Shown here: positions 11,859 through 41,496 of the stretch, piece after piece
Numbering within the stretch: position 1 is the stretch's first letter
Layout of the letters: each line of letters starts with the position of its first letter
Origin: Methanococcoides orientis
GTDB lineage: Archaea > Halobacteriota > Methanosarcinia > Methanosarcinales > Methanosarcinaceae
Length of the DNA: 64,000 nt
Direction: 5' to 3'
Assembly (NCBI RefSeq): GCF_021184045.1
Contig: NZ_CP073710.1
Span: 496,001-560,000 of the forward strand
Translations under genes and position numbers: made by a program
Notes under the pieces: model-generated
Databases searched by the model: none
Seen by the model: only the letters and a program-made list of their open reading frames with translations
Told to the model about the DNA's origin: nothing

Positions 11859-12404
11859 TTACAATGTTTGTTTTGCATTCCATATTCTTTGTACAAGAGT
11901 GAAGTGTGCAAGTACTGCTATAATGGCTACTGCAATTAAAATATATCCTGTGATAGCACCCAGTACGAGTATAATAAGTCTTTCAGACCTCTCTGCAATT
12001 CCCACGTTCATCGAAGTGGATCCTGCGGCCTCTGCTCTTGCGCGTGTGTAACTGACCATGTACGAGCCGATCAATGCGAGAACGCACCATAGCCACAATG
12101 GTGCCTGCAGCAAGGTGGCCTGATGGATGCTTCCATTAACGGAGCCATAAATGATGCCTGCAAAAATGATAGCGTCTGCATATCTATCACATACCGAGTC
12201 CAATACGCCTCCAAATGGTGTTATGTTGCCTGAAGCCCTTGCAACTGCGCCATCAAGAACATCAAAGATACCACTTAGCATAATGAAGGCCGCACCCATG
12301 ATAAGTTCGCCGATGGCAAACTCAAGGGCTGCAATGCCACTGATGAGCAGTCCTATGATGGTTAGGATATTTGGCGAGATCGGAATGTTCTTTGCAAGCG
12401 GCAA
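11859..12404 (-). CDS. CDP-alcohol phosphotransferase, probable archaetidylinositol phosphate synthase
   Basis: Membrane enzyme that would join CDP-archaeol to inositol phosphate in archaeal lipid synthesis. The family signature D-G-x2-A-R-x8-G-x3-D-x3-D is complete in LDGAVARASG..GGVLDSVCDRYAD, with about five membrane helices. The listed start is a TTG without a ribosome site. The frame stays open upstream, and GAGGGATC (12448-12455) precedes ATT codons at 12446 and 12443, which would add the conserved-looking FNELKDTIRISV; a non-standard ATT start is therefore possible. Inositol phosphate as acceptor is inferred from archaeal homologues. Confidence 0.85.
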   Translation of the reverse strand: MPLAKNIPISPNILTIIGLLISGIAALEFAIGELIMGAAFIMLSGIFDVLDGAVARASGNITPFGGVLDSVCDRYADAIIFAGIIYGSVNGSIHQATLLQAPLWLWCVLALIGSYMVSYTRARAEAAGSTSMNVGIAERSERLIILVLGAITGYILIAVAIIAVLAHFTLVQRIWNAKQTL

Positions 12405-26631: not shown

Positions 26632-26766
26632 CATTGGTTTCAAATTAGAAAAGGTTAAATACGAGTATTCGCAAGGATTATTTGCAGTTGAACAGGACAA
26701 ACGACCTTTCGGGAAAACAAGACTTTCCGATCGGGCTGTAAGACTGCTATTAAAAAGGTGATGAAA

Positions 26767-27423
26767 ATGGGAAATCAGGAACTTTTTGACAAACTTAAAG
26801 ATGCAATAGTAAACCAGGACATTAACGGATGTCCAGCACTGACACAGGAAGCTCTCGATGCAGGTCTCTCTGCATTCGATATTATCAACGAAGCACTTGC
26901 ACCAGGCATGAAGATCGTCGGTGACAACTTCGAAGCAGCAACAATCTACCTTCCACAGATCATGATGTCTGCAAAGGCAATGAAAGCTGCAATGGAGATC
27001 CTTGAGCCAATTCTCGCAGAAGAGAAGGGCGACGAAGAGGGTGTCGGAATGGCTGTAACATTCGTACAGGAAGGAGATATTCACGATATCGGTCACCGTC
27101 TTGTTACAACAATGCTCGGTGCAAATGGATTTGACATTCTCGACCTTGGAACAGATATTCCAAACGAAGATGTTGTTGAAGCAATTGCAAAGAACAAGGG
27201 CAAGAAGATGATCCTTGTAGGTTCCGCACTTATGACAACCTCAATGCTCGGCCAGAAAGATGTAGTAAGATTACTTGAAGAGGAGAACCTTAGAGGCGAA
27301 GTCAAGATCATGTTCGGTGGCGCACCAGTCACAGATGAATGGATCGCTGAGTGTGGTGCAGACGGCACAGCCGAAAATGCAGCAGAGGCAGCAAGAGTAG
27401 CACTTGAGCTTATGAGCGCATAA
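26767..27423 (+). CDS. mtmC: monomethylamine corrinoid protein MtmC (copy 1)
   Basis: Carries the methyl group from MtmB to the CoM methyltransferase on its cobalamin. The 218-residue protein has the helical cap (1-90) and Rossmann cobalamin domain with base-off ligand His106 in EGDIHDIG, then SALMTTSM and GGAPVTDEWI. Start at 26767 is set by AAGGTGA 5 bases upstream and by exact agreement with copy 2; the Met at 26758 overlaps the ribosome site. It differs from copy 2 by three residues, all in the first 35. mtmB follows by 17 bases. Confidence 0.96.
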   Translation: MGNQELFDKLKDAIVNQDINGCPALTQEALDAGLSAFDIINEALAPGMKIVGDNFEAATIYLPQIMMSAKAMKAAMEILEPILAEEKGDEEGVGMAVTFVQEGDIHDIGHRLVTTMLGANGFDILDLGTDIPNEDVVEAIAKNKGKKMILVGSALMTTSMLGQKDVVRLLEEENLRGEVKIMFGGAPVTDEWIAECGADGTAENAAEAARVALELMSA

Positions 27424-27440
27424 ATTGGGGAGACATTAAA

Positions 27441-28817
27441 ATGACATTCACAAAATCAGTAACTTGCTTTGACTTCTATGACCGAGCACAGAACGGTGAG
27501 AAATGCACCCAGGATGACTGGGATCTGATGACCATTCCAATGAAGGCAATGGAACTCAAGCAGAAATACAACCTTGACTTTGGTACCGAGTTCGTTCCAA
27601 CCGACAAGGACCAGATGGAGAGACTCTTCAAGGCAGGTTTCGACATGCTCCTTGAGTGTGGTATCTACTGCACAGACACAAAGAGGATCGTCAAATACAC
27701 AGAAGACGAACTCTGGGACGCAATCAACAACCCAATGCCAGCATTCCAGCTCGGTACAGGCAGAGATGCAGTACAGATGAAGAAGAGATCTGTTGGTGAC
27801 AAGAGAAAGCCAATAGTACAGGGTGGTCCAACAGGTTCCCCAATCTCAGAAGATATGTTCTCTGCAATTCACATGAGCTATGCACTCGAGAAAGAAGTTG
27901 ACACAATTGTAAATGGTGTTATGATGACGGTTCGTGGTAAGCCACCTATACCAGGCAGCCCATACGAAGTTCTCGCAGCAAAGTCCGAAACAAGGATCAT
28001 CAAGAACGCAGCAGCAATGGCTGGTAGGCCAGGTATGGCTGTTTAGGGACCTGAGACCTCCCTGTCAGCTCAGGGTAACATCGCTTCCGACTGTGTCGGC
28101 GGCCAGGTCACAAGTGACAGCCACGAAGTATCACAGCTCAACGAGCTTAAGATCGACCTCGATGCAATTGCAGTCATGGCTCACTACAAGGGCAACAGTG
28201 ACATAATCATGGACGAGCAGATGCCAATCTTCGGCGGATACGCTGGTGGTATTGAAGAAACAACAATCGTAGATGTTGCAACCAGCCTTAACTCCATGAT
28301 CATGAGCAGTGCAAGCTGGCACCTTGATGGTCCTGTCCACATCAGATGGGGATCCACCAACACCAGGGAAACCCTCCAGATCGCAGGATGGGCATGTGCA
28401 ACAATCAGTGAGTTCACAGACCTTATGACCGGTAACCAGTACTATCCATGTGCAGGTCCATGTACCGAGATGTGCCTCCTCGAAGCAGCAGCACAGTCAG
28501 TAACTGACACAGCATCCGGCCGTGAGATCCTCTCAGGTGTCGCAGCAGCAAAGGGTGTCATCACTGACAAGACAACCGGTATGGAAGCAAGGATGATGGG
28601 AGAAGTCGCACGTGCAACAGCAGGCATGGACATTGACTCCGTCAACGCTGTACTCGACAAGCTCGTTGCATCATACGAAGGCGACTATGCAAATGCTCCT
28701 GAGGGTAAGACCTTCCAGGAATGTTATGATGTTGCAACCGTTACACCAACCGACGAGTACGTCAAGGTATACGAGGGTGCAAGGAAGAAACTCGAAGAGT
28801 TCGGTCTTTCATTCTAA
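27441..28817 (+). CDS. mtmB: monomethylamine methyltransferase MtmB (copy 1), contains pyrrolysine
   Basis: Transfers the methyl group of monomethylamine to MtmC. The gene reads 458 codons with one in-frame TAG at 28044-28046, codon 202, where the known MtmB active-site pyrrolysine lies (context GMAV-Pyl-GPETSLS). Both sides of the TAG are conserved in the second copy, so this is read-through by tRNA-Pyl, not a broken gene; automatic ORF calling splits it into 201- and 213-residue pieces. A hairpin terminator follows the TAA. Confidence 0.97.
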
Positions 28818-28874: not shown

Positions 28875-29546
28875 TTTTCTACTACGTATATATTAGATTC
28901 CGCAAATATTGTGCTATTTGCTGCGATCACAGATCAATAACTAATTAATTTATTGGATATCCATTGTAGCAGCTTTCAATGGCATAGTCCTTATTCATCG
29001 CTACTAACATTGATGCAGACATGCTTTTGATAGTTTTTAAAATGAAATAATCTGGAACTTCCTGTTTGATCTATATATTAGTATCATGAACATTTTAAGA
29101 CTAAATCAAATTCAATTTAACAAATCCTTAATTGTCATTTGCCGAGAACTGAGGTTAAAATATTTCTTAGGTCTGATGGATTGATCTCAAAGGTCCAATT
29201 TTCAATAATATTGTGTGCGGCAACATTCCTTTCTATTTAAAAAAACTTAATGTCCATGTGCACAATATATATATACTAGATCTTATCTCCTGCCAAAGCG
29301 TATTGTTTTTTTTATAATGTCTAATCGTTCTATTTCTATGTTAACAATTTTTTAACAATCGTAATGTAAAACTATATATATTAAATAGTTCGGCAAGCAA
29401 ATTCCGGTTATATGTTGACAAAAAAATATAAATACCATAATGTAATTTGTGCCAGAAATTCAGTAAATCAAGAGTAATCTATCCTTTAAGGATTTTCGTG
29501 CTGATTACATAGAATTTTGATTGCTAGAAAGTAAAGGTGCATGAAA
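28875..29546. other. long AT-rich intergenic region before the permease cassette
   Basis: About 670 bases without a gene. It holds a direct repeat TTAACAAT-n2-TTAACAAT near 29340-29358, several TATA-like runs, and a good TATA box TATAAATA at 29427-29434 that would start an approximately 90-base leader for the microprotein and permease. Its length suggests room for regulator binding. Confidence 0.5.
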
Positions 29547-29642
29547 ATGGATACATGGACTATAATCAATGGAATCATCTATTTGACCTGTTTTGTTTTG
29601 ATAGGTTGGATGTTATTAGATGCCAGTAAAGTCTCAAAATAA
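29547..29642 (+). CDS. conserved 31-residue single-helix microprotein upstream of permease (copy 1)
   Basis: Short membrane microprotein, MDTWTIINGIIYL then CFVLIGWMLLDASKVSK, with one hydrophobic helix and a basic C-terminal end. It is believable because copy 2 at 40002 encodes a matching 32-residue protein (WTxINGxIYL, LIGWMLLxASKVS) in the same position before the second permease, and AAGGTG lies 8 bases before this ATG. It ends 23 bases before the permease. Likely a small subunit or regulator of the permease; the function is inferred from context only. Confidence 0.75.
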   Translation: MDTWTIINGIIYLTCFVLIGWMLLDASKVSK

Positions 29643-29665
29643 TTGTGGTTTTTAAGGAGAATTAA

Positions 29666-31039
29666 ATGTCTGGAAATACAAATTCGGAACATGGTGTCGT
29701 AAAGACACTCCGCCCTTATCACGTATGGGCGCTTGGAGTTGGTATTGTTCTGGTAGGCGAATACATGGGTTGGAACTTTACAGTTGCAAAAGGTGGAATA
29801 CTTGGTTCACTCTTTGCATTGTTGGTTGCAGGTACCATGTTTGTAATGGTTTCTTTATGCGCCAGTGAACTAGGATCATCAACTAAACTAGCAGGCGGAC
29901 CTTATGATTGGGCAAGATTATTCGTAGGACCCGGTGCAGCCGCACTTGTAGGTCTTGCAGTATATATGGAATTCATTGCTCTGGAAGCTGCTGACGCTAT
30001 TGTCGTTGCATCCATCACAAATTCGATCTTCCCGGAAATAGATACATTCCCGGTTACATTGTTAATTATATCATTCTTAACATTTATGAACTATCGTGGA
30101 GTCGTAGCTGCTCTTAATCTTAACTTTGCACTCACATTCACAGCATTGATAGCTATCATAGTATTCTTCTTCATGAACATTACCGGATTTGCCGGCACAT
30201 GGCACCCGGAATATCTCATATCAGGAGCTATACCTAACGGTTTTATAGGTGTCTTTGCAGCTCTGCAATTTGGACCTTGGTTCTACCTTGGTATCGAAGG
30301 AGCAGCAATGTGTGCAGAAGAATGCAAACATCCAACAAGAGCAGTTCCTCTCGGACAGCAAGCAGGCATGATAACCCTTCTTCTCGGTTCAGGTATGACA
30401 CTCTACTTATGTTCAGGTCTCATCCCAGCCGCAGAACTCGGTTCTTCAGTATACCCACTCTTTGAAGCAGCAACAGCAACAGGTTCTAAATTCCTCATTG
30501 CAGCTCTCGGAATCGGTACACTTTTCACCTGTCTTGCAAGCGCAAACGGTACAGTTTGTGACGCATCACGGTCATGGTTTGCCCTTTCAAGGGATAAATT
30601 TCTGACAAATTGGTTCGCTGACGTGCATCCACGTTACAGCACTCCATACAGGGCAGTCATTTTCACAATGCCTATCGCGATCGCATTTGCATTTAGTGGT
30701 TTCCTCGATCAGGTCATCACCTTTTCAATCATATCAGGTTTAATCTGCTATGTAATGATCCCATTTTCCCTGATCCGCTTTAGGAAGTTATTCCCGGAGC
30801 ACAGCCAGAAGGTCCGCCCGTTTGTGGGTCCTCTGCAGCCAACAATTGCATACATTACGATTTTCCTTGCCATTGTGATCATGTCTACCCTTAACTGGGG
30901 ATACAATTACAACCTTATCTTTGGACTCTTGTTCTACGTAATAGCATACTTCTACTTCTCGTGGAGATATAAGAGCATTGAGATAAATCACGATTGGGGA
31001 GAAGACCTCGGATGGCCTGAACCCGTACACAGGAGATAA
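29666..31039 (+). CDS. mtmP: APC-family methylamine permease (copy 1)
   Basis: 457-residue amino acid/polyamine/organocation-type permease with about twelve hydrophobic helices, ending in a hydrophilic DWGEDLGWPEPVHRR tail. Position behind mtmCB and before two small membrane proteins supports monomethylamine uptake, as assigned to MtmP in Methanosarcina. AAGGAGA precedes the ATG. It is about four-fifths identical to copy 2, much less than the neighbouring mtmCB pairs. The closest bacterial functional relatives are ethanolamine and similar amine permeases. Substrate is inferred. Confidence 0.85.
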   Translation: MSGNTNSEHGVVKTLRPYHVWALGVGIVLVGEYMGWNFTVAKGGILGSLFALLVAGTMFVMVSLCASELGSSTKLAGGPYDWARLFVGPGAAALVGLAVYMEFIALEAADAIVVASITNSIFPEIDTFPVTLLIISFLTFMNYRGVVAALNLNFALTFTALIAIIVFFFMNITGFAGTWHPEYLISGAIPNGFIGVFAALQFGPWFYLGIEGAAMCAEECKHPTRAVPLGQQAGMITLLLGSGMTLYLCSGLIPAAELGSSVYPLFEAATATGSKFLIAALGIGTLFTCLASANGTVCDASRSWFALSRDKFLTNWFADVHPRYSTPYRAVIFTMPIAIAFAFSGFLDQVITFSIISGLICYVMIPFSLIRFRKLFPEHSQKVRPFVGPLQPTIAYITIFLAIVIMSTLNWGYNYNLIFGLLFYVIAYFYFSWRYKSIEINHDWGEDLGWPEPVHRR

Positions 31040-31052
31040 TGGAGGAAGAAAA

Positions 31053-31316
31053 ATGGTGAATAAGACAAAATATCACAACGACCTCAAAAAAGATGCAGGC
31101 ATTATTGTTCTCGTATTAGGACTCTTGTTCTTCTCAGAGACATTTGTCTTTTATAGAATAATATCAACTCTATGGGATGCAGTGCCCGAACTTCGTACCA
31201 TCTTTCCGGTCTACCTCTTGTTCCTGGTACTTTTGCTCGGGATCGAGACCATCGGTTGCATCACTGTGTACAAATCCATCAAGGAACACATGTACGACTT
31301 TAACTATTACGATTAA
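31053..31316 (+). CDS. 87-residue two-helix membrane protein, permease-associated (copy 1)
   Basis: Small protein with two membrane segments (AGIIVLVLGLLFFSETFVFY near 15-35 and a Leu-rich one near 48-70) and a conserved tail IKEHMYDFNYYD. GGAGG precedes the ATG, 13 bases after the permease stop. Copy 2 (41512) has the same length and tail. I do not recognise a named family; an accessory subunit of the permease is the natural reading. Confidence 0.8.
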   Translation: MVNKTKYHNDLKKDAGIIVLVLGLLFFSETFVFYRIISTLWDAVPELRTIFPVYLLFLVLLLGIETIGCITVYKSIKEHMYDFNYYD

Positions 31317-31328
31317 GGAGGTGGAAAT

Positions 31329-31556
31329 ATGGCAAAATCTGAAGCAAAAGGTAGTATTATCATGCAGATCGCAGATATCCTGTTCATCTTCGTTGTCGCA
31401 GGTATTTGTGTAATAGCTCCTGTACTTGTACTTGGAGCTGACACTGGACCTGTAGTATTTGACTGGAATCCTTTCGAATACTTCGGCTTGGTGGCAGTGA
31501 TCCTTGTATTCTTTGCTGTGATCCTGCATCACTCTCTCAAGAACTATATCTATTAA
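31329..31556 (+). CDS. 75-residue two-helix membrane protein, permease-associated (copy 1)
   Basis: Second small membrane protein of the cassette, with segments ADILFIFVVAGICVIAPVLV and FGLVAVILVFFAVILHHSL, separated by WNPFEYFG. AAGGAGGTGG lies just upstream. Copy 2 (41788) keeps QIxDILFIF, WxPxxYFGL and ILxHSxKNY but has a slightly longer loop. Family unknown; always last gene of the permease unit here. Confidence 0.8.
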   Translation: MAKSEAKGSIIMQIADILFIFVVAGICVIAPVLVLGADTGPVVFDWNPFEYFGLVAVILVFFAVILHHSLKNYIY

Positions 31557-31768: not shown

Positions 31769-32572
31769 ATGACATCGTCACTGACAGATCATGTTTGGCT
31801 TTCTGAAAAAAGAACGAACCTGCTTTTGTTACTAATGGAAGGTCCTCGGGACATCGAACAGATCAAGATGTCTCTTAATGTTACATCGCGTGGTATGATG
31901 CCACAGATAAAGAAACTCAAGGAAAAACACCTTATCATCGAAGAGGGTGAGAACTACAAATTATCGAATATCGGAAAGCTTGTCGTTAGGAACATGCTAC
32001 CCCTTATCAATACATTGAGTATGATCTCCGAGAACAAGGAGTACTGGGAGCAACACGATATCAATATTCTCCCCCCTCATCTTTTCAAACGACTTCATGA
32101 ACTAGGAAACTATCTGCTTCTTGAACCTGATCTTCACTATACATTTGAGATACCGAAAGAATTTACAGAAAATCTCCTGAAATCAAAGGAGATAATGTCC
32201 ATAATCTCTTTTTACAGACCTGAATACCCAAAGTTCTATTCTGAACTTGCAGAGAGGGCAAATAGTCTTACACTGATCCTTTCAGAATCGGCATTTAAGA
32301 GAATGAAGACCAACAATATGAAAGAACTGGATTTTCTTTTATCCGCAAAGAACACAAGGGTCTTACTATATCAGGGTGAAGGAAGACCACCGGCAATTGA
32401 TGTGTCCGAGTGGTTCATGTACATCAGCTTTTTGAGCGAGAACGGTAGCTATGACCACAATGATATTATGAGCTTTGATGAAAGTGCTTTGAAGTGGTGT
32501 ACTGAATTGTTCGTTCATTATTGTGATCGATCTATGGAAATAACAGACATTCAAGAGGGTGGGGATATATAA
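31769..32572 (+). CDS. winged-helix/DUF1724 methanogenesis regulator (Msr/FilR-like) A
   Basis: 267-residue transcription factor with an N-terminal winged helix (about 10-75; TSRGMMPQIKKLKEKHLI recognition region) and a C-terminal DUF1724 sensor domain (about 95-255). This architecture is that of the Methanosarcina Msr regulators of methyltransferase genes and of FilR1. AAAGGGGT precedes the start. Its stop overlaps the ATG of a paralogous regulator by one base. Location between the two methylamine cassettes suggests it controls them. Confidence 0.82.
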   Translation: MTSSLTDHVWLSEKRTNLLLLLMEGPRDIEQIKMSLNVTSRGMMPQIKKLKEKHLIIEEGENYKLSNIGKLVVRNMLPLINTLSMISENKEYWEQHDINILPPHLFKRLHELGNYLLLEPDLHYTFEIPKEFTENLLKSKEIMSIISFYRPEYPKFYSELAERANSLTLILSESAFKRMKTNNMKELDFLLSAKNTRVLLYQGEGRPPAIDVSEWFMYISFLSENGSYDHNDIMSFDESALKWCTELFVHYCDRSMEITDIQEGGDI

Positions 32573-33357
32573 TGGTATTAGACCTGATCGAAACCCTTTT
32601 CCTTTCGGAGAAAAGAGAAAATTTACTTCTTTTGCTTCTTAATGGCCCCACAGATATAAAAACGATCAACTCAAGTCTTGATGTTAGTTCTTCTTCCATA
32701 CTTCCACAGATAAAGAAACTCCGTGAATCAGGTCTTGTTCATAAGGATGATACCGGAATCTATGAACTGACAACTATAGGACGGCTTATAGTCGAGAACA
32801 TGAAACCGCTTTCCAGTATGCTGAAAGTATTTGATAAATCGGATCTTTATTGGGATGACCGTGACCTGAACTCAATTCCGGAAGAACTTCTTAACAATAT
32901 AGGTGACCTGGGAGATATCGAACTTGTTGTGCCTGACCTGGACCACATGTATGAGATTCCGGAAAAACTGATAAGCAACACCAATGACTCGCAAGAAATG
33001 AGTTCAATGGTATCATTTTTCCATCCTGATTTTCCCCGATTCTACAAAGATATTACGAACAGGGGGGTAGTTCTTGATCTGATAGTTACAGATTCTGTAT
33101 TTGAAAGGATGCAAAATGACTATGAAGAGGAAATGAATGCCATATTAGGATCTGGAAATACGACATTTCTAATTTGCAAGGACGAGTTAAAAGCGCCTAC
33201 TTTTAATGTCACTGAAAAATGTGCCTATATCAGCTTCTTTAATAGCCAGGGAAGATACGATCATCAGGACATCATAACATTTGAGGATAGTGCAATTGAT
33301 TGGTGCAAAGAGCTCTTCTCATACTACCGTGAACTTTCAAGAACTGCTAACGAATAA
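32572..33357 (+). CDS. winged-helix/DUF1724 methanogenesis regulator (Msr/FilR-like) B
   Basis: 261-residue paralogue of the preceding gene: same winged helix (SSSSILPQIKKLRESGLV) and DUF1724 domain with shared motifs EIP, SFFHPDFPRFY and SALxWCKELF. The start ATG overlaps the previous stop (TAATG), so the two are co-translated, which hints at a heterodimer or obligate pair as described for Msr proteins. It precedes the sensor kinase by 32 bases. Confidence 0.82.
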   Translation: MVLDLIETLFLSEKRENLLLLLLNGPTDIKTINSSLDVSSSSILPQIKKLRESGLVHKDDTGIYELTTIGRLIVENMKPLSSMLKVFDKSDLYWDDRDLNSIPEELLNNIGDLGDIELVVPDLDHMYEIPEKLISNTNDSQEMSSMVSFFHPDFPRFYKDITNRGVVLDLIVTDSVFERMQNDYEEEMNAILGSGNTTFLICKDELKAPTFNVTEKCAYISFFNSQGRYDHQDIITFEDSAIDWCKELFSYYRELSRTANE

Positions 33358-33389
33358 GATCGATCATTAAAAATATATATGGGCCGAGT

Positions 33390-35570
33390 ATGCAATGGAA
33401 AGACCTGTCACTGAAATTTAAATTAGTACTTTATATAGTCGTAGGCATTTCATTCATACTGTCTGCTTCATCAATTACTATAATTTCTACTGTTACGGAT
33501 CAGGAAGAACAACTTGCATACCATGACTCTATCCAGAATGCAAAAAGCTTTGCACACCAGTATAATGCCGATATGAAGGCCAACATGGCAATAGCAAGCT
33601 CACTGGCAGCACTTATGGTTAAATATGAGTCTGCTGACCGTAATGAAACGAATGAGATGTTAAAAGAGCTACTTGCAGAGAACCCAAATCTCATTGGGGC
33701 ATATGTTGGTTTTGAGCCGAATGCCTTTGACGGGAGGGATGCTGAATTCGTTGGAGCGGAAGGGCATGACGATACCGGAAGATTTGTACCATACTGGAAC
33801 ACTATAAATGGTCCTATCAGTGTTGAGCCTCTTGTAGATTATGAGGTATCTGAATATTATCAGGGTCCAAAGAAACTCAAGCAAAATGTGGTCACAGAAC
33901 CTTATCTTTACCAGGGAGCACTGATGGTAAGCTATGATGCACCTATTATCAGAAATGGGGAATTTGTTGGCATCGGCGGTGTTGATGTATCGTTAAACTA
34001 TGTTGATGAGGCTGTAAGTAGTGTAAAGGCTTTTGATACAGGTTATCTTTTCATGGTTAGCAACGAAGGAATACTTCTTTCGCATCCAATTAACAAGGAA
34101 TGGATCGGAACGAGCTCCATCTATGATTTTGATATACCGCAAATAAGTATTGCTGCTGATGACATAAGGAATGGAGTTGGTGGTCATATTGACACCATTG
34201 ATCCTGCAACCTCAAAAGAGGTCGTCATGTTCTATGAACCAATTGAAACCGGTAATTATGCAATTGTACTTGTTGTACCTCCCGAGGAAATGTTCGCAGG
34301 GGTTAATTCCATAAGGTCCGACCTGGTTTCCATTTACCTGTTCTCTATCTTTTTCATGGGCTTAATGGCCTTTTTTATAGCATCTTCATTTACAAACAGG
34401 ATCGATGAGATCGTAGCAGACTTCAAGAAGATATCCGGAGCAGCTTTGAGGGGAGATTTTGATGCAAGGGCAAATACTGATGTTGAGCTCGATCTCAATT
34501 TAATACCCAAAGGTTTGAACGAGATCCTTGATTCCCTTACTATCTATTCAAAGGAATTGCAGAACTCCTATGAACTCATAAGCAAGATGGAGGCAGCCGT
34601 TAACAGCAGCAGGGTCGTTGTGTTCTGGTGGAAAAATGAAGAGGACTATCCTGTCGAATTCGTTTCAGACAATATAACCCAATTTGGATATTCACTTGAA
34701 GAATTCACATCAGGCAAGGTGCTATATGGTAATATAATACATCCTGATGATCGTAAAATAGTATGGAATGAACTACAAGCTTGTGCAGATGAAGGAAAGA
34801 AGAATTTCCACAAAGATTACAGGATCGTTACAAAGAATGGGAACATACGCTGGATACACGAAGATACATATATTCAGCGGGATGAAGGTGGAAGTATCAC
34901 ATACTTCCAGGGTACAATTCTTGACATTACAGAACGTGTTGAAGCGGAAGAGAACCTTAAAACAATGGAAGATGTAAGGACTAAGGAGATCCATCACCGG
35001 ATTAAGAACAATCTTCAGGTTGTTTCAGGAATGCTTTATCTGGAATCTCTGAAGTTCAAGTATCAGGAAGTGATTGACTCCTTCAGGGATAGTGAGAACC
35101 GTGTCCGTTCCATTGCACTGATTCATGAAAAGCTCTATCAGTCAAAGGATCTTGTAAGTCTTGATTTTGCTGATTACATTGAAAACCTGACAGATCACTT
35201 ATTCCATTCATATAATGTAGATAAGGAAAATGTTAATCTGATTTTGAATGTTGAGGATGTTTTCCTGGGAATGGATACAGCTGTTCCCCTTGGTATCATT
35301 ATCAATGAACTGACATCAAATGCACTACAACATGCCTTTGGAAATGGTGAACAAGGAGACATAGAGATCGATTTCCAGAAAGATAACGATGTCTTCACGC
35401 TAATAATTAGTAATACGGGGACCCCATTCCCGGAATATATAGACTTCAAGAATACAGAATCTCTTGGACTTCAGCTTGTAACGAACCTGACGTCCCAGGT
35501 CGATGGTGAAATTGAGCTGGACAAGACCAATGGAACCAAATTTAAGATAACTTTCCGTGAGAACAGATGA
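33390..35570 (+). CDS. Cache-domain sensor histidine kinase (PAS, HisKA_2)
   Basis: 726-residue membrane kinase. First membrane helix at about 10-32, an extracellular double-Cache-like domain (about 38-310), second helix at about 313-335, a HAMP-like linker, PAS/PAC at about 410-520, then HisKA_2 with the phospho-accepting HH pair at 535/536 (KEIHHRIKNNLQVVSG) and a C-terminal ATPase (NELTSNALQHAFG, SLGLQLV). The Cache domain probably binds a small ligand; methylamine is a tempting guess but unproven. It is immediately followed by a response regulator. Confidence 0.9.
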   Translation: MQWKDLSLKFKLVLYIVVGISFILSASSITIISTVTDQEEQLAYHDSIQNAKSFAHQYNADMKANMAIASSLAALMVKYESADRNETNEMLKELLAENPNLIGAYVGFEPNAFDGRDAEFVGAEGHDDTGRFVPYWNTINGPISVEPLVDYEVSEYYQGPKKLKQNVVTEPYLYQGALMVSYDAPIIRNGEFVGIGGVDVSLNYVDEAVSSVKAFDTGYLFMVSNEGILLSHPINKEWIGTSSIYDFDIPQISIAADDIRNGVGGHIDTIDPATSKEVVMFYEPIETGNYAIVLVVPPEEMFAGVNSIRSDLVSIYLFSIFFMGLMAFFIASSFTNRIDEIVADFKKISGAALRGDFDARANTDVELDLNLIPKGLNEILDSLTIYSKELQNSYELISKMEAAVNSSRVVVFWWKNEEDYPVEFVSDNITQFGYSLEEFTSGKVLYGNIIHPDDRKIVWNELQACADEGKKNFHKDYRIVTKNGNIRWIHEDTYIQRDEGGSITYFQGTILDITERVEAEENLKTMEDVRTKEIHHRIKNNLQVVSGMLYLESLKFKYQEVIDSFRDSENRVRSIALIHEKLYQSKDLVSLDFADYIENLTDHLFHSYNVDKENVNLILNVEDVFLGMDTAVPLGIIINELTSNALQHAFGNGEQGDIEIDFQKDNDVFTLIISNTGTPFPEYIDFKNTESLGLQLVTNLTSQVDGEIELDKTNGTKFKITFRENR

Positions 35571-35579
35571 GGTGTTAAT

Positions 35580-35990
35580 ATGAAATCTACCAGGATACTC
35601 GTAGTGGAAGATGAGGCTATCGTAGCAATGGTTATCAAAAAGAGGCTCATGAACCTTGGTTATAGCGTTTCGGGAGTTGCTGCGACAGGAAAGGATGCAA
35701 TTACCAAGGTGGAAGGAACATTTCCTGACCTTGTGCTCATGGATATAATGCTAAAAGGGGACATGGATGGAATAGAAGCAGCAGATGAAATTCGAAAACG
35801 CTTCTCAATACCAGTAGTGTACCTTACAGCACACTCCGATGAGAATACTCTGGAAAGGGCGAAACAAACAGAACCCTATGGGTACATACTCAAGCCATTT
35901 ACAGAAAGGGATCTAAGCAGTAATATTGAGATCGCGATACACAAACACCTGAAGGAAAAACAAAAAGAAAGCTCTGGAAGGATGGAATAA
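35580..35990 (+). CDS. single-domain response regulator
   Basis: 136-residue receiver without an output domain: acidic EDE at 10-12, phospho-acceptor Asp55 in LVLMDIMLKG, Thr in YLTAHSD, Lys in YILKPF. GAGGTG lies 5 bases before the ATG and 10 bases after the kinase stop. As in the LtrK-/FilI-type systems of methanogens it presumably hands the signal to another protein, possibly the wHTH/DUF1724 pair encoded just upstream. Confidence 0.9.
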   Translation: MKSTRILVVEDEAIVAMVIKKRLMNLGYSVSGVAATGKDAITKVEGTFPDLVLMDIMLKGDMDGIEAADEIRKRFSIPVVYLTAHSDENTLERAKQTEPYGYILKPFTERDLSSNIEIAIHKHLKEKQKESSGRME

Positions 35991-37819: not shown

Positions 37820-38476
37820 ATGGGAAATCAGGAACTTTTTGACAAACTTAAAAATGCAATTGTGAACCAGGACATTAACGGATGCCCAGCACTGACACAG
37901 GAAGCACTTGACGCAGGAATCACTGCTTTTGATATTATCAACGAAGCACTTGCACCAGGCATGAAGATCGTCGGTGACAACTTCGAAGCAGCAACAATCT
38001 ACCTTCCACAGATCATGATGTCTGCAAAGGCAATGAAAGCTGCAATGGAGATCCTTGAGCCAATTCTCGCAGAAGAGAAAGGCGACGAAGAGGGTGTCGG
38101 AATGGCTGTAACATTCGTACAGGAAGGAGATATTCACGATATCGGTCACCGTCTTGTTACAACAATGCTCGGTGCAAATGGATTTGACATTCTCGACCTT
38201 GGAACAGATATTCCAAACGAAGATGTTGTTGAAGCAATTGCAAAGAACAAAGGCAAGAAGATGATCCTTGTAGGTTCCGCACTTATGACAACCTCAATGC
38301 TCGGCCAGAAAGATGTAGTAAGGTTACTTGAAGAAGAGAACCTCAGAGGCGAAGTCAAGATCATGTTCGGTGGCGCACCAGTCACAGATGAATGGATCGC
38401 TGAGTGTGGTGCAGACGGCACAGCCGAAAATGCAGCAGAGGCAGCAAGAGTAGCACTTGAGCTTATGAGCGCATAA
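37820..38476 (+). CDS. mtmC: monomethylamine corrinoid protein MtmC (copy 2)
   Basis: Second MtmC, 218 residues, cobalt ligand His106 in EGDIHDIG. It differs from copy 1 only at residues 12 (Asn), 34 (Ile) and 35 (Thr); from residue 36 to the end the proteins are identical and the DNA nearly so, including third codon positions. AAGGTGA lies 6 bases upstream of the ATG. mtmB copy 2 follows by 16 bases. Confidence 0.96.
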   Translation: MGNQELFDKLKNAIVNQDINGCPALTQEALDAGITAFDIINEALAPGMKIVGDNFEAATIYLPQIMMSAKAMKAAMEILEPILAEEKGDEEGVGMAVTFVQEGDIHDIGHRLVTTMLGANGFDILDLGTDIPNEDVVEAIAKNKGKKMILVGSALMTTSMLGQKDVVRLLEEENLRGEVKIMFGGAPVTDEWIAECGADGTAENAAEAARVALELMSA

Positions 38477-38492
38477 ATTAGGAGTAATTAAT

Positions 38493-39869
38493 ATGACATT
38501 CACAAAATCAGTAACTTGCTTTGACTTCTATGACCGCGCACAGAACGGTGAGAAATGCACTCAGGATGACTGGGATCTGATGACCATTCCTATGAAGGCA
38601 ATGGAACTCAAGCAGAAATACAACCTTGACTTTGGTACCGAGTTCGTTCCAACCGACAAGGACCAGATGGAGAGACTCTTCAAGGCAGGTTTCGACATGC
38701 TCCTTGAGTGTGGTATCTACTGCACAGACACAAAGAGGATCGTCAAATACACAGAAGACGAACTCTGGGACGCAATCAACAACCCAATGCCAGCATTCCA
38801 GCTTGGTACAGGCAGAGATGCAGTACAGATGAAGAAGAGATCTGTTGGTGACAAGAGAAAGCCAATAGTACAGGGTGGTCCAACAGGTTCCCCAATCTCA
38901 GAAGATATGTTCTCTGCAGTTCACATGAGCTATGCACTCGAGAAAGAAGTTGACACAATTGTAAATGGTGTTATGATGACGGTTCGTGGTAAGCCACCTA
39001 TACCAGGCAGCCCATACGAAGTTCTCGCAGCAAAGTCCGAAACAAGGATCATCAAGAACGCAGCAGCAATGGCTGGCAGACCTGGTATGGCTGTTTAGGG
39101 ACCTGAGACCTCCCTGTCCGCTCAGGGAAATATCGCTTCCGACTGTGTCGGCGGCCAGGTCACAAGTGACAGCCACGAAGTATCACAGCTCAACGAGCTT
39201 AAGATCGACCTCGATGCAATTGCAGTCATGGCTCACTACAAGGGCAACAGTGACATAATCATGGACGAGCAGATGCCAATCTTCGGCGGATACGCTGGTG
39301 GTATTGAAGAAACAACAATCGTAGATGTTGCAACTAGCATTAACTCCATGATTATGAGCAGTGCAAGCTGGCACCTTGATGGTCCTGTCCACATCAGATG
39401 GGGATCCACCAACACCAGGGAAACACTCCAGATCGCAGGATGGGCATGTGCAACAATCAGTGAGTTCACAGACCTTATGACTGGTAACCAGTACTACCCA
39501 TGCGCAGGACCATGCACAGAGATGTGCCTCCTCGAAGCAGCAGCACAGTCAGTAACTGACACAGCATCCGGCCGTGAGATCCTCTCAGGTGTCGCATCCG
39601 CAAAGGGTGTCATCACCGACAAGACAACCGGTATGGAAGCAAGGATGATGGGAGAGGTCGCACGTGCAACAGCAGGCATGGACATCGACTCCGTCAACGC
39701 TGTACTCGACAAGCTCGTTGCATCATACGAGAACAACTACGCAGATGCACCACAGGGTAAGACCTTCCAGGAATGCTACGACGTTGCAACCGTCACACCA
39801 ACAGACGAGTACGTCAAGGTATACGAGGGTGCAAGGAAGAAACTCGAAGAGTTCGGTCTTACATTCTAA
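38493..39869 (+). CDS. mtmB: monomethylamine methyltransferase MtmB (copy 2), contains pyrrolysine
   Basis: 458 codons with the in-frame TAG at 39096-39098 (codon 202, pyrrolysine), in the same context as copy 1. About eight residues differ between copies (for example Val for Ile in SEDMFSAVH, ENNYADAPQG versus EGDYANAPEG near residue 427), none close to residue 202. The high identity over both mtmC and mtmB points to recent duplication or gene conversion. Confidence 0.97.
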
Positions 39870-40001: not shown

Positions 40002-40100
40002 ATGGATATGTGGACTTTAATAAACGGGGTTATTTACCTCATAGCCTTTGCCTTGATAGGTTGGATGTTGCTAAACGCTAGTAAGGTATCCAATGAATAA
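40002..40100 (+). CDS. conserved 32-residue single-helix microprotein upstream of permease (copy 2)
   Basis: MDMWTLINGVIYLIAFALIG then WMLLNASKVSNE. It matches copy 1 at 29547 in length, hydrophobic helix and the WMLLxASKVS ending, with AAAGGGGG 8 bases upstream. It sits 22 bases before the permease ATG. Conservation at the protein level despite different DNA (for example ACTATAATC versus ACTTTAATA) argues that it is translated and selected. Confidence 0.78.
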   Translation: MDMWTLINGVIYLIAFALIGWMLLNASKVSNE

Positions 40101-40122: not shown

Positions 40123-41496
40123 ATGTCTGAAAATTCGAATGAACCGATCGAACTGGTAAAGACGCTACGTCCATACCATGTATGGGCACTTGGTGTCGGT
40201 ATCGTGTTGGTCGGTGAATACATGGGTTGGAACTTCACAGTTGCAAAAGGTGGTATACTCGGTTCACTCTTTGCACTTCTGGTTGCAGGTACCATGTATA
40301 TTATGGTTGCATTATGCGCTAGTGAACTAGGTTCATCCACAAAACTTGCAGGAGGACCTTATGATTGGGCGAGATTATTTGTAGGGCCGGGTGCGGCTGC
40401 TATTGTAGGTCTTGCTGTTTATATGGAATATATTGCTCTGGAAGCTGCCGATGCTATTGTCGTAGCGTGGATAGCGCAATCGATATTCCCGGAGATACAA
40501 ACGTTTCCGGTCACATTGCTGGTTATTGCAGCATTAACATTTATGAATTATCGCGGAGTTGTGGCGGCATTAAATCTTAATTTTGCCTTAACATTCACTG
40601 CGTTGATCGCTATTATTACGTTCTTCTTTATGACCATCAGCGGGGTAGGTGGAACATGGCATCCTGAATATCTTATTTCCGGTGCTATGCCAAATGGTTT
40701 TATTGGTATCTTTGCAGCACTCCAGTTCGGTCCCTGGTTCTACCTGGGTATTGAAGGAGCAGCAATGTGTGCTGAGGAATGTAAGCATCCAACAAGAGCA
40801 GTTCCTCTTGGTCAGCAGGCTGGTATGATCACACTGTTGCTTGCAGCAGGTATGACACTCTATGTTTGTGCAGGATTTATTCCAACAGCTGAACTTGGTG
40901 TTTCTGCATACCCACTTTACGAAGCAGCAACACAAAGCGGAGTTAAGTTCCTGGTCGCATTCCTGGCAGTAGGTACACTCTTTACCTGTCTGGCAAGTGC
41001 GAACGGTACTGTCTGTGACTCATCAAGATCATGGTTCGCCCTTTCAAGGGACCACTTCCTTACACCATGGTTCTCAGCAGTACATCCAAAATACAGCACT
41101 CCATACAGGGCAGTTATCTTTACAATGCCAATTGCGATCGCATTTGCATTCAGTGGTTTCCTTGACCAGGTCATTACATTCTCGATCACATCAGGATTGG
41201 TATGTTATGTGATGATCCCATTCTCTCTGATACGCTTCAGGAAGATGTTCCCGGAACACACACAAAAGGTACGTCCATTTGTCGGACCACTGCAGCCTTA
41301 TCTTGCATACTTCACGATCTTCCTTGCGATCGTGATCATGTCAACACTAAATTGGGGTTACAGCTACAACCTTGTCTTCGGTCTGGTGTTCTATGTTGTT
41401 GCATACTTCTACTTCTCGTGGAGATACAGAAGTATAGAATCAAAACACGACTGGGGAGAAGACCTTGGATGGCCTGAACCTGCACACAGGAGATGA
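40123..41496 (+). CDS. mtmP: APC-family methylamine permease (copy 2)
   Basis: 457 residues, same length and helix plan as copy 1; the two share long invariant blocks (VGEYMGWNFTVAKGGILGSL, GPWFYLGIEGAAMCAEECKH, SANGTVCD) while differing elsewhere in protein and in synonymous positions. GGAGGAGG precedes the ATG. Divergence of permeases beside nearly identical mtmCB suggests different affinity or expression for the two uptake systems. Confidence 0.85.
   Translation: MSENSNEPIELVKTLRPYHVWALGVGIVLVGEYMGWNFTVAKGGILGSLFALLVAGTMYIMVALCASELGSSTKLAGGPYDWARLFVGPGAAAIVGLAVYMEYIALEAADAIVVAWIAQSIFPEIQTFPVTLLVIAALTFMNYRGVVAALNLNFALTFTALIAIITFFFMTISGVGGTWHPEYLISGAMPNGFIGIFAALQFGPWFYLGIEGAAMCAEECKHPTRAVPLGQQAGMITLLLAAGMTLYVCAGFIPTAELGVSAYPLYEAATQSGVKFLVAFLAVGTLFTCLASANGTVCDSSRSWFALSRDHFLTPWFSAVHPKYSTPYRAVIFTMPIAIAFAFSGFLDQVITFSITSGLVCYVMIPFSLIRFRKMFPEHTQKVRPFVGPLQPYLAYFTIFLAIVIMSTLNWGYSYNLVFGLVFYVVAYFYFSWRYRSIESKHDWGEDLGWPEPAHRR

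Follow-up and report, generated by a model that had tools for sequence, protein, structure and literature searches.

A permease cassette common to archaea and bacteria probably encodes an APC transporter for methylamine and three small membrane proteins as its dedicated subunits

Does the methylamine permease of a methanogen act alone, or together with the small membrane proteins encoded on either side of it? The question is raised by a 64,000-nucleotide stretch (the window) of the 2.49 Mb genome of Methanococcoides orientis (Methanosarcinaceae), which carries two paralogous methylamine cassettes with the gene order mtmC-mtmB-MP-permease-S-T, all on the + strand. MP denotes a single-helix microprotein, and S and T denote two-helix membrane proteins. 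The genes are as follows, in window coordinates.

26758-28817, + strand: mtmC and mtmB of cassette 1, read from the reading frames; in-frame TAG in mtmB between 28046 and 28176
29547-29642, + strand: MP1, single-helix microprotein of 31 aa, MDTWTIINGIIYLTCFVLIGWMLLDASKVSK; Shine-Dalgarno (SD)-like AAAGGTG just upstream
29666-31039, + strand: P1, MtmP-type APC permease of 457 aa; PF00324, E=4.5e-36
31053-31316, + strand: S1, two-helix membrane protein of 87 aa, C-terminal SIKEHMYDFNYYD; no Pfam/NCBIfam family above cut-off
31329-31556, + strand: T1, two-helix membrane protein of 75 aa; no Pfam/NCBIfam family above cut-off
37820-39869, + strand: mtmC and mtmB of cassette 2, read from the reading frames; in-frame TAG
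40002-40100, + strand: MP2, microprotein of 32 aa, MDMWTLINGVIYLIAFALIGWMLLNASKVSNE; SD-like AAAGGGGG upstream
40123-41496, + strand: P2, second MtmP-type permease of 457 aa; 86% identity with P1
41512-41775, + strand: S2, two-helix membrane protein of 87 aa
41788-42033, + strand: T2, two-helix membrane protein of 81 aa

In both cassettes we take mtmC to encode a monomethylamine corrinoid protein and mtmB a pyrrolysine methyltransferase with an in-frame TAG, and these genes, where they adjoin cassette 1, give it a substrate context. An in-frame ATG at 29541, six bases upstream, is a possible alternative start for MP1; position 29547 was taken as the start since it agrees with the conserved MDxW beginning of the family. 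An SD-like site precedes each start in both cassettes, and the successive spacers measure 23, 13 and 12 nt in cassette 1 and 22, 15 and 12 nt in cassette 2. The initial annotation had described a frame of 31 or 32 codons with one helix and a shared ending before each permease, an 87-residue and a 75- or 81-residue two-helix protein after it, and an order and spacing kept in both cassettes; its coordinates, lengths and shared ending are all correct, as are the sizes of S1 and S2 (87 aa), T1 (75 aa) and T2 (81 aa), and the spacers agree closely. Amino-acid identity between the cassettes is 23/31 (74%) for MP, 394/457 (86%) for the permease, 57/87 (66%) for S and 40/75 (53%) for T.

Other genes lie around the two cassettes. 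A desulfoferrodoxin-domain gene (PF01880; 42118-42594) lies 3′ of T2. It has counterparts in 41 archaeal loci, but the Methanosarcina cassettes among those compared showed none behind them. The interval between the cassettes (31769-35990) encodes two regulators of the FilR1/Msr type, the first of which was tested for PF08350, together with a large protein resembling a sensor kinase and one with a receiver domain.

To evaluate whether the microprotein is a gene, permease relatives were gathered from whole genomes and named genome contigs. MP is encoded directly upstream of the permease in 88/90 archaeal permease loci by hidden Markov model (HMM) search, one of the two exceptions (L043) being truncated by a contig end, and S and T were each detected in 88/90. 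Genera with the cassette include Methanococcoides, Methanohalophilus, Methanolobus, Methanosarcina, Methanohalobium and a divergent Methanimicrococcus, and the archaeal MP consensus reads MDxWTIINGxIYLxxFxxxGWxLLDASKVSKK. The median pairwise dN/dS of MP is 0.13 (351 pairs), close to the values for S (0.155) and T (0.151); between MP1 and MP2, synonymous sites are nearly saturated (17.5/18.3) and most residues are kept. An SD-like motif lies 4-16 nt 5′ of the MP start at 63/63 distinct loci, compared with 27/252 control windows. MP is a real protein gene, conserved well beyond chance, and MP, S and T are real proteins under selection. The initial annotation had left it to a search upstream of mtmP in other methanogens whether the frame is conserved outside this genome, and the 88/90 loci, the low dN/dS and the SD-like motif at every distinct locus establish that it is.

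The small proteins follow the permease and not the methylamine pathway. Across the Methanosarcinaceae genomes searched, T is present in 46/46 that carry the permease and in 0/16 that lack it, and S was likewise not found in any of these 16 permease-negative genomes. Since at least 11 of the 16 retain a clear mtmB, it is the permease, rather than the methyltransferase, that the small proteins track. A third, divergent cassette (L038, genome G049) stands behind genes that, read from their sequence, we take to encode a dimethylamine methyltransferase; it keeps MP, S and T, which suggests that the four-part design also serves dimethylamine. A second lineage of Methanosarcina cassettes (L077, L082, L085 and L100) has no adjacent methyltransferase gene. 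In two genomes without an MtmP cassette, a protein judged by eye to be Amt-like, with 10-11 helices, is encoded beside mtmB (L162, 4593-5843; L163, 5191-6447) and is possibly a replacement methylammonium transporter. Two copies look as if they were decaying or mis-sequenced: an additional T gene interrupted by an in-frame TGA (G095:C1:890531-890761), and a permease whose reading frame is broken in two (G400:C2:155056-156383).

The association is also specific among permeases. In the plasmid collection, independent searches with the permease and with T match the same 22 records, and T was not found on 74 other plasmids that carry distant APC permeases. Small membrane partners like MP, S and T were not found beside three ethanolamine permease loci. 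A quickly built tree, whose long outgroup branches fix neither the root nor the direction of transfer, separates the archaeal permeases from the bacterial ones and sets both well apart from the ethanolamine permeases. The MP, S and T set is tied to the MtmP-type permease clade.

The permeases belong to the APC superfamily (PF00324/PF13520), scoring 125 and 133.6 bits against a gathering score of 24.6. The nearest curated family is the ethanolamine permease Eat (TIGR00908, E ~1e-63); this assignment was rejected, as the scores of 214.9 and 218 bits lie below the equivalog cut-off of 381.75. Eat differs further from the MtmP-type permease in sharing <30% identity with it in the plasmid records listed, in its separate branch of the tree and in the lack of small membrane partners beside eat. 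The predicted model of a homologue (L067), of moderate confidence, matches BasC, AdiC and GkApcT with TM-scores (target) of 0.75-0.83, and LAT1 is also among its fold matches; by its sequence matches and this model, the permease has a LAT/CAT-like APC fold. For S and T, the Pfam/NCBIfam matches all stayed below threshold and disagreed with one another, and profile searches of the PDB returned nothing usable for either. A fused MP-permease-S model of a relative, with the stop codons read through, reached a pTM of 0.73, a score that carries no inter-chain confidence. In it, MP is predicted as one confident helix and the permease fold is formed, and most of S falls below 50 pLDDT because no deep alignment underlies it.

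The permease search also returned 32 bacterial loci at 41-46% identity, drawn from named genome contigs and nearly all from methylotrophic Proteobacteria (Methyloversatilis, Gemmobacter, Paracoccus, Methyloligella, Aestuariivirga and others); the bacterial range of the set is judged from these loci and from the 22 plasmid records. Clustering of small ORFs, in which the archaeal proteins were not used, found three conserved membrane proteins upstream of the bacterial permeases, and by HMM search homologues of MP, T and S are present in 32/32, 32/32 and 31/32 of these loci, respectively. Profile-profile comparison of the archaeal with the bacterial families gave a probability of 85 (E 6.5e-7) for the MP pair, 94 for the T pair (96 with a second alignment choice, E 1.9e-9) and 24 for the S pair (54 with the second choice, E 1.3e-4), and every off-diagonal pair scored <0.4. 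Judged from these profiles, cross-domain homology is clear for MP and T and weak to moderate for S. The bacterial MP is longer (~45-60 aa) and ends in an extra conserved C-terminal tail, YxExxLxSSREGE, and the loop of the bacterial T is longer than that of its archaeal counterpart.

The bacterial genes are arranged S-T-MP-permease, whereas the archaeal order is MP-permease-S-T, and the persistence of a gene set through changes of order argues more strongly for a functional unit than a conserved operon would by itself. In 20/32 bacterial loci, mgsABC, which encode the N-methylglutamate synthase used in aerobic methylamine oxidation, are found within ~5 kb. On the Paracoccus aminophilus plasmid pAMI6, the cassette faces gmaS-mgsABC; the three small products, of 99, 125 and 56 aa, carry no annotation beyond 'hypothetical protein'. 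The cross-domain homologues are annotated as CDS in bacteria, where the records label the transporter as a lone 'amino acid permease' and its neighbours as 'hypothetical'. The set is common to archaea and bacteria and accompanies methylamine catabolism in both. Judging from the neighbouring enzymes, mtmB or mtbB in archaea and mgsABC/gmaS in bacteria, methylamine would be the substrate. Downstream of the permease, the bacterial cassettes (L101-L132) also encode proteins of ~220-240 aa (32/32 loci) and ~90 aa (31/32), to which no family was assigned; no counterpart of either was seen around the archaeal cassettes.

Based on these observations, we propose that the product of the cassette is probably an APC transporter for methylamine, found in both domains, to which three small membrane proteins belong as dedicated subunits. 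The 457-aa permease would be the transport subunit, and MP with its one helix and S and T with two helices each would be the small subunits, probably made with the permease from one transcript. MP most likely lies against the surface of the permease in the way that MgtS binds GkApcT, and it is expected on the face corresponding to TM5, since this is where MgtS packs on that relative. A positive-inside reading of the sequences would place the lysine-rich C-terminus of MP inside and have S and T contribute two hairpins with both ends inside. Together, the small proteins may stabilise the amino-acid-permease fold and tune it for methylated ammonium.

The initial annotation had put forward a four-component permease in which the small proteins control assembly, stability or transport. 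Of this idea, the reality of MP and the constancy of the trio as companions of the permease across the two domains have held, and comparison supports the core of the idea well; the physical complex with its stoichiometry, packing site and effect on transport is what we infer from them. The small proteins may contribute stability, gating, oligomerisation or substrate selection, and a control of assembly would be a further possibility. A broader reading seems to us evenly balanced, namely that archaea and bacteria possess APC transporters for methylated amines that are obligately built from several subunits, in which three small subunits would make the fold a working methylammonium transporter, and which would have diverged long ago between the two domains, had their genes reshuffled and been coupled independently to two unrelated catabolic pathways. 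Against the proposal of dedicated subunits stand the weak cross-domain homology of S, the diffusion of part of the methylated amines as neutral bases, and the fact that some genomes with mtmB do without the cassette.

Conserved linkage and co-occurrence are also compatible with a regulatory or a transient assembly role. We consider it unlikely that the small proteins are post-translational regulators or gates of the permease, in the manner in which sP36 acts on AmtB1 in M. mazei. This archaeal family does have small membrane proteins that regulate transporters, and growth in nitrogen-rich medium slows when the analogous microprotein of the trimethylamine (TMA) operon is overexpressed (PMC11456600). 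However, one would expect more difference between the regulators of aerobic methylotrophs and those of methanogens, yet the trio is kept over the domain divide, and the fixed short spacing of the genes suggests stoichiometric synthesis. Slightly less probable again are assembly or insertion factors, that is, dedicated chaperones that leave once the permease has folded. The same co-occurrence and operon evidence speaks for them, and sequence cannot separate them from the subunit model; three dedicated factors for one APC permease would nevertheless be unusual, and the ethanolamine-type APC permeases inspected have none alongside.

Two further readings concern the MP frame itself and were discarded in view of its presence at 88/90 loci, the dN/dS of 0.13 and the SD-like motif at 63/63. 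It is very improbable that the frame is a leader peptide or upstream ORF that controls translation of the permease through a functionless product: it is short, lies directly 5′ of the permease and has its own ribosome-binding site, but its amino-acid sequence is under strong purifying selection, its transmembrane helix is kept in all lineages, its bacterial homologue has ~45-60 aa and carries the conserved C-terminal tail, and the gap between MP and permease varies widely between lineages. That the frames are chance ORFs or stretches of conserved DNA, for which the shortness of MP might be cited, is scarcely credible given the dN/dS, the near-saturated synonymous sites between the window copies, the SD motif and the homologues annotated as CDS in bacteria.

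The subunit model matters since methylamine uptake supplies a major marine route to methane as well as aerobic methylotrophy. If MP, S and T are subunits, studying the permease by itself in a foreign host would give failed or misleading results. The recurring pair of microprotein and permease would also offer a clean genetic system in which to study the role of single-helix microproteins for secondary transporters.

The initial annotation had regarded such subunits as undescribed. This needs qualification, as a microprotein of M. mazei, sORF_05 (PMC11456600), and MgtS (PMC5803215) are precedents; for the MP, S and T trio itself, its obligate link to an APC permease and its bacterial counterparts, we found no description in the literature searched. 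Small membrane subunits of secondary transporters and microproteins encoded with methylated-amine permeases are known, and a three-small-subunit APC transporter common to archaea and bacteria has, as far as we found, no precedent. In an RNA-seq data set of M. mazei, expression of MM_1434 and MM_1433, the two genes after mtmP, rises with that of mtmC, mtmB and mtmP, and MM_1434 is annotated as 'MtmP (C-terminal domain)' (PMC7465815); the two are not certain to be S and T, and MM_1434 may be either S or part of a split permease, as in the G400 copy. In Methanohalophilus mahii, two adjacent genes are listed as monomethylamine transporter (PMC3017947).

The sORF_05 protein (MM_RS18880) was identified in the trimethylamine permease operon of M. 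mazei by Ribo-seq, tagging and membrane fractionation (Tufail et al. 2024), and has already been proposed as a possible permease subunit (PMC11456600). Like MP, it is a membrane microprotein of the Methanosarcinaceae encoded with a methylated-amine permease. However, its permease, MttP, belongs to another family with 9-10 predicted helices and 348-364 aa. We observed a single-helix protein of 49-54 aa ending in LWQARTFVSxF 3′ of MttP, in the window's own genome (L136, reverse strand, rc 11909-12073) and at a second locus (L133, 12241-12390), which from its position is probably of the sORF_05 family. MP gave no HMM or BLAST match to this frame, and S and T were not found at the MttP loci.

Among secondary transporters more widely, MetP/MetS and those SSS symporters that have a small subunit combine the transporter with one small transmembrane subunit from the same operon; they differ from the cassette in transporter family and in having one small subunit rather than three. 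The SLC3-SLC7 transporters (4F2hc-LAT1 and others) also join an APC-fold permease to an obligate single-helix partner. Unlike the cassette partners of ~31-110 aa, their heavy chain has a large extracellular domain, and no large partner of this kind is present in the cassettes.

The crystal complex of MgtS (YneM) with GkApcT (PDB 5oqt/6f34) has a 31-residue single helix from E. coli lying on TM5 of the transporter (PMC5803215). It differs from the cassette in that MgtS came from the E. coli host during heterologous expression and is not encoded with the transporter, and in being without a counterpart of S or T; no local alignment of MP with MgtS was found at E <= 100. The likeness lies in a 31-residue single-helix protein that goes with an APC transporter, to which MP would bind as MgtS does, GkApcT being a sequence relative of the MtmP-type permease, and the authors of that structure themselves likened MgtS to the single helix of the SLC3 heavy chain (PMC5803215).
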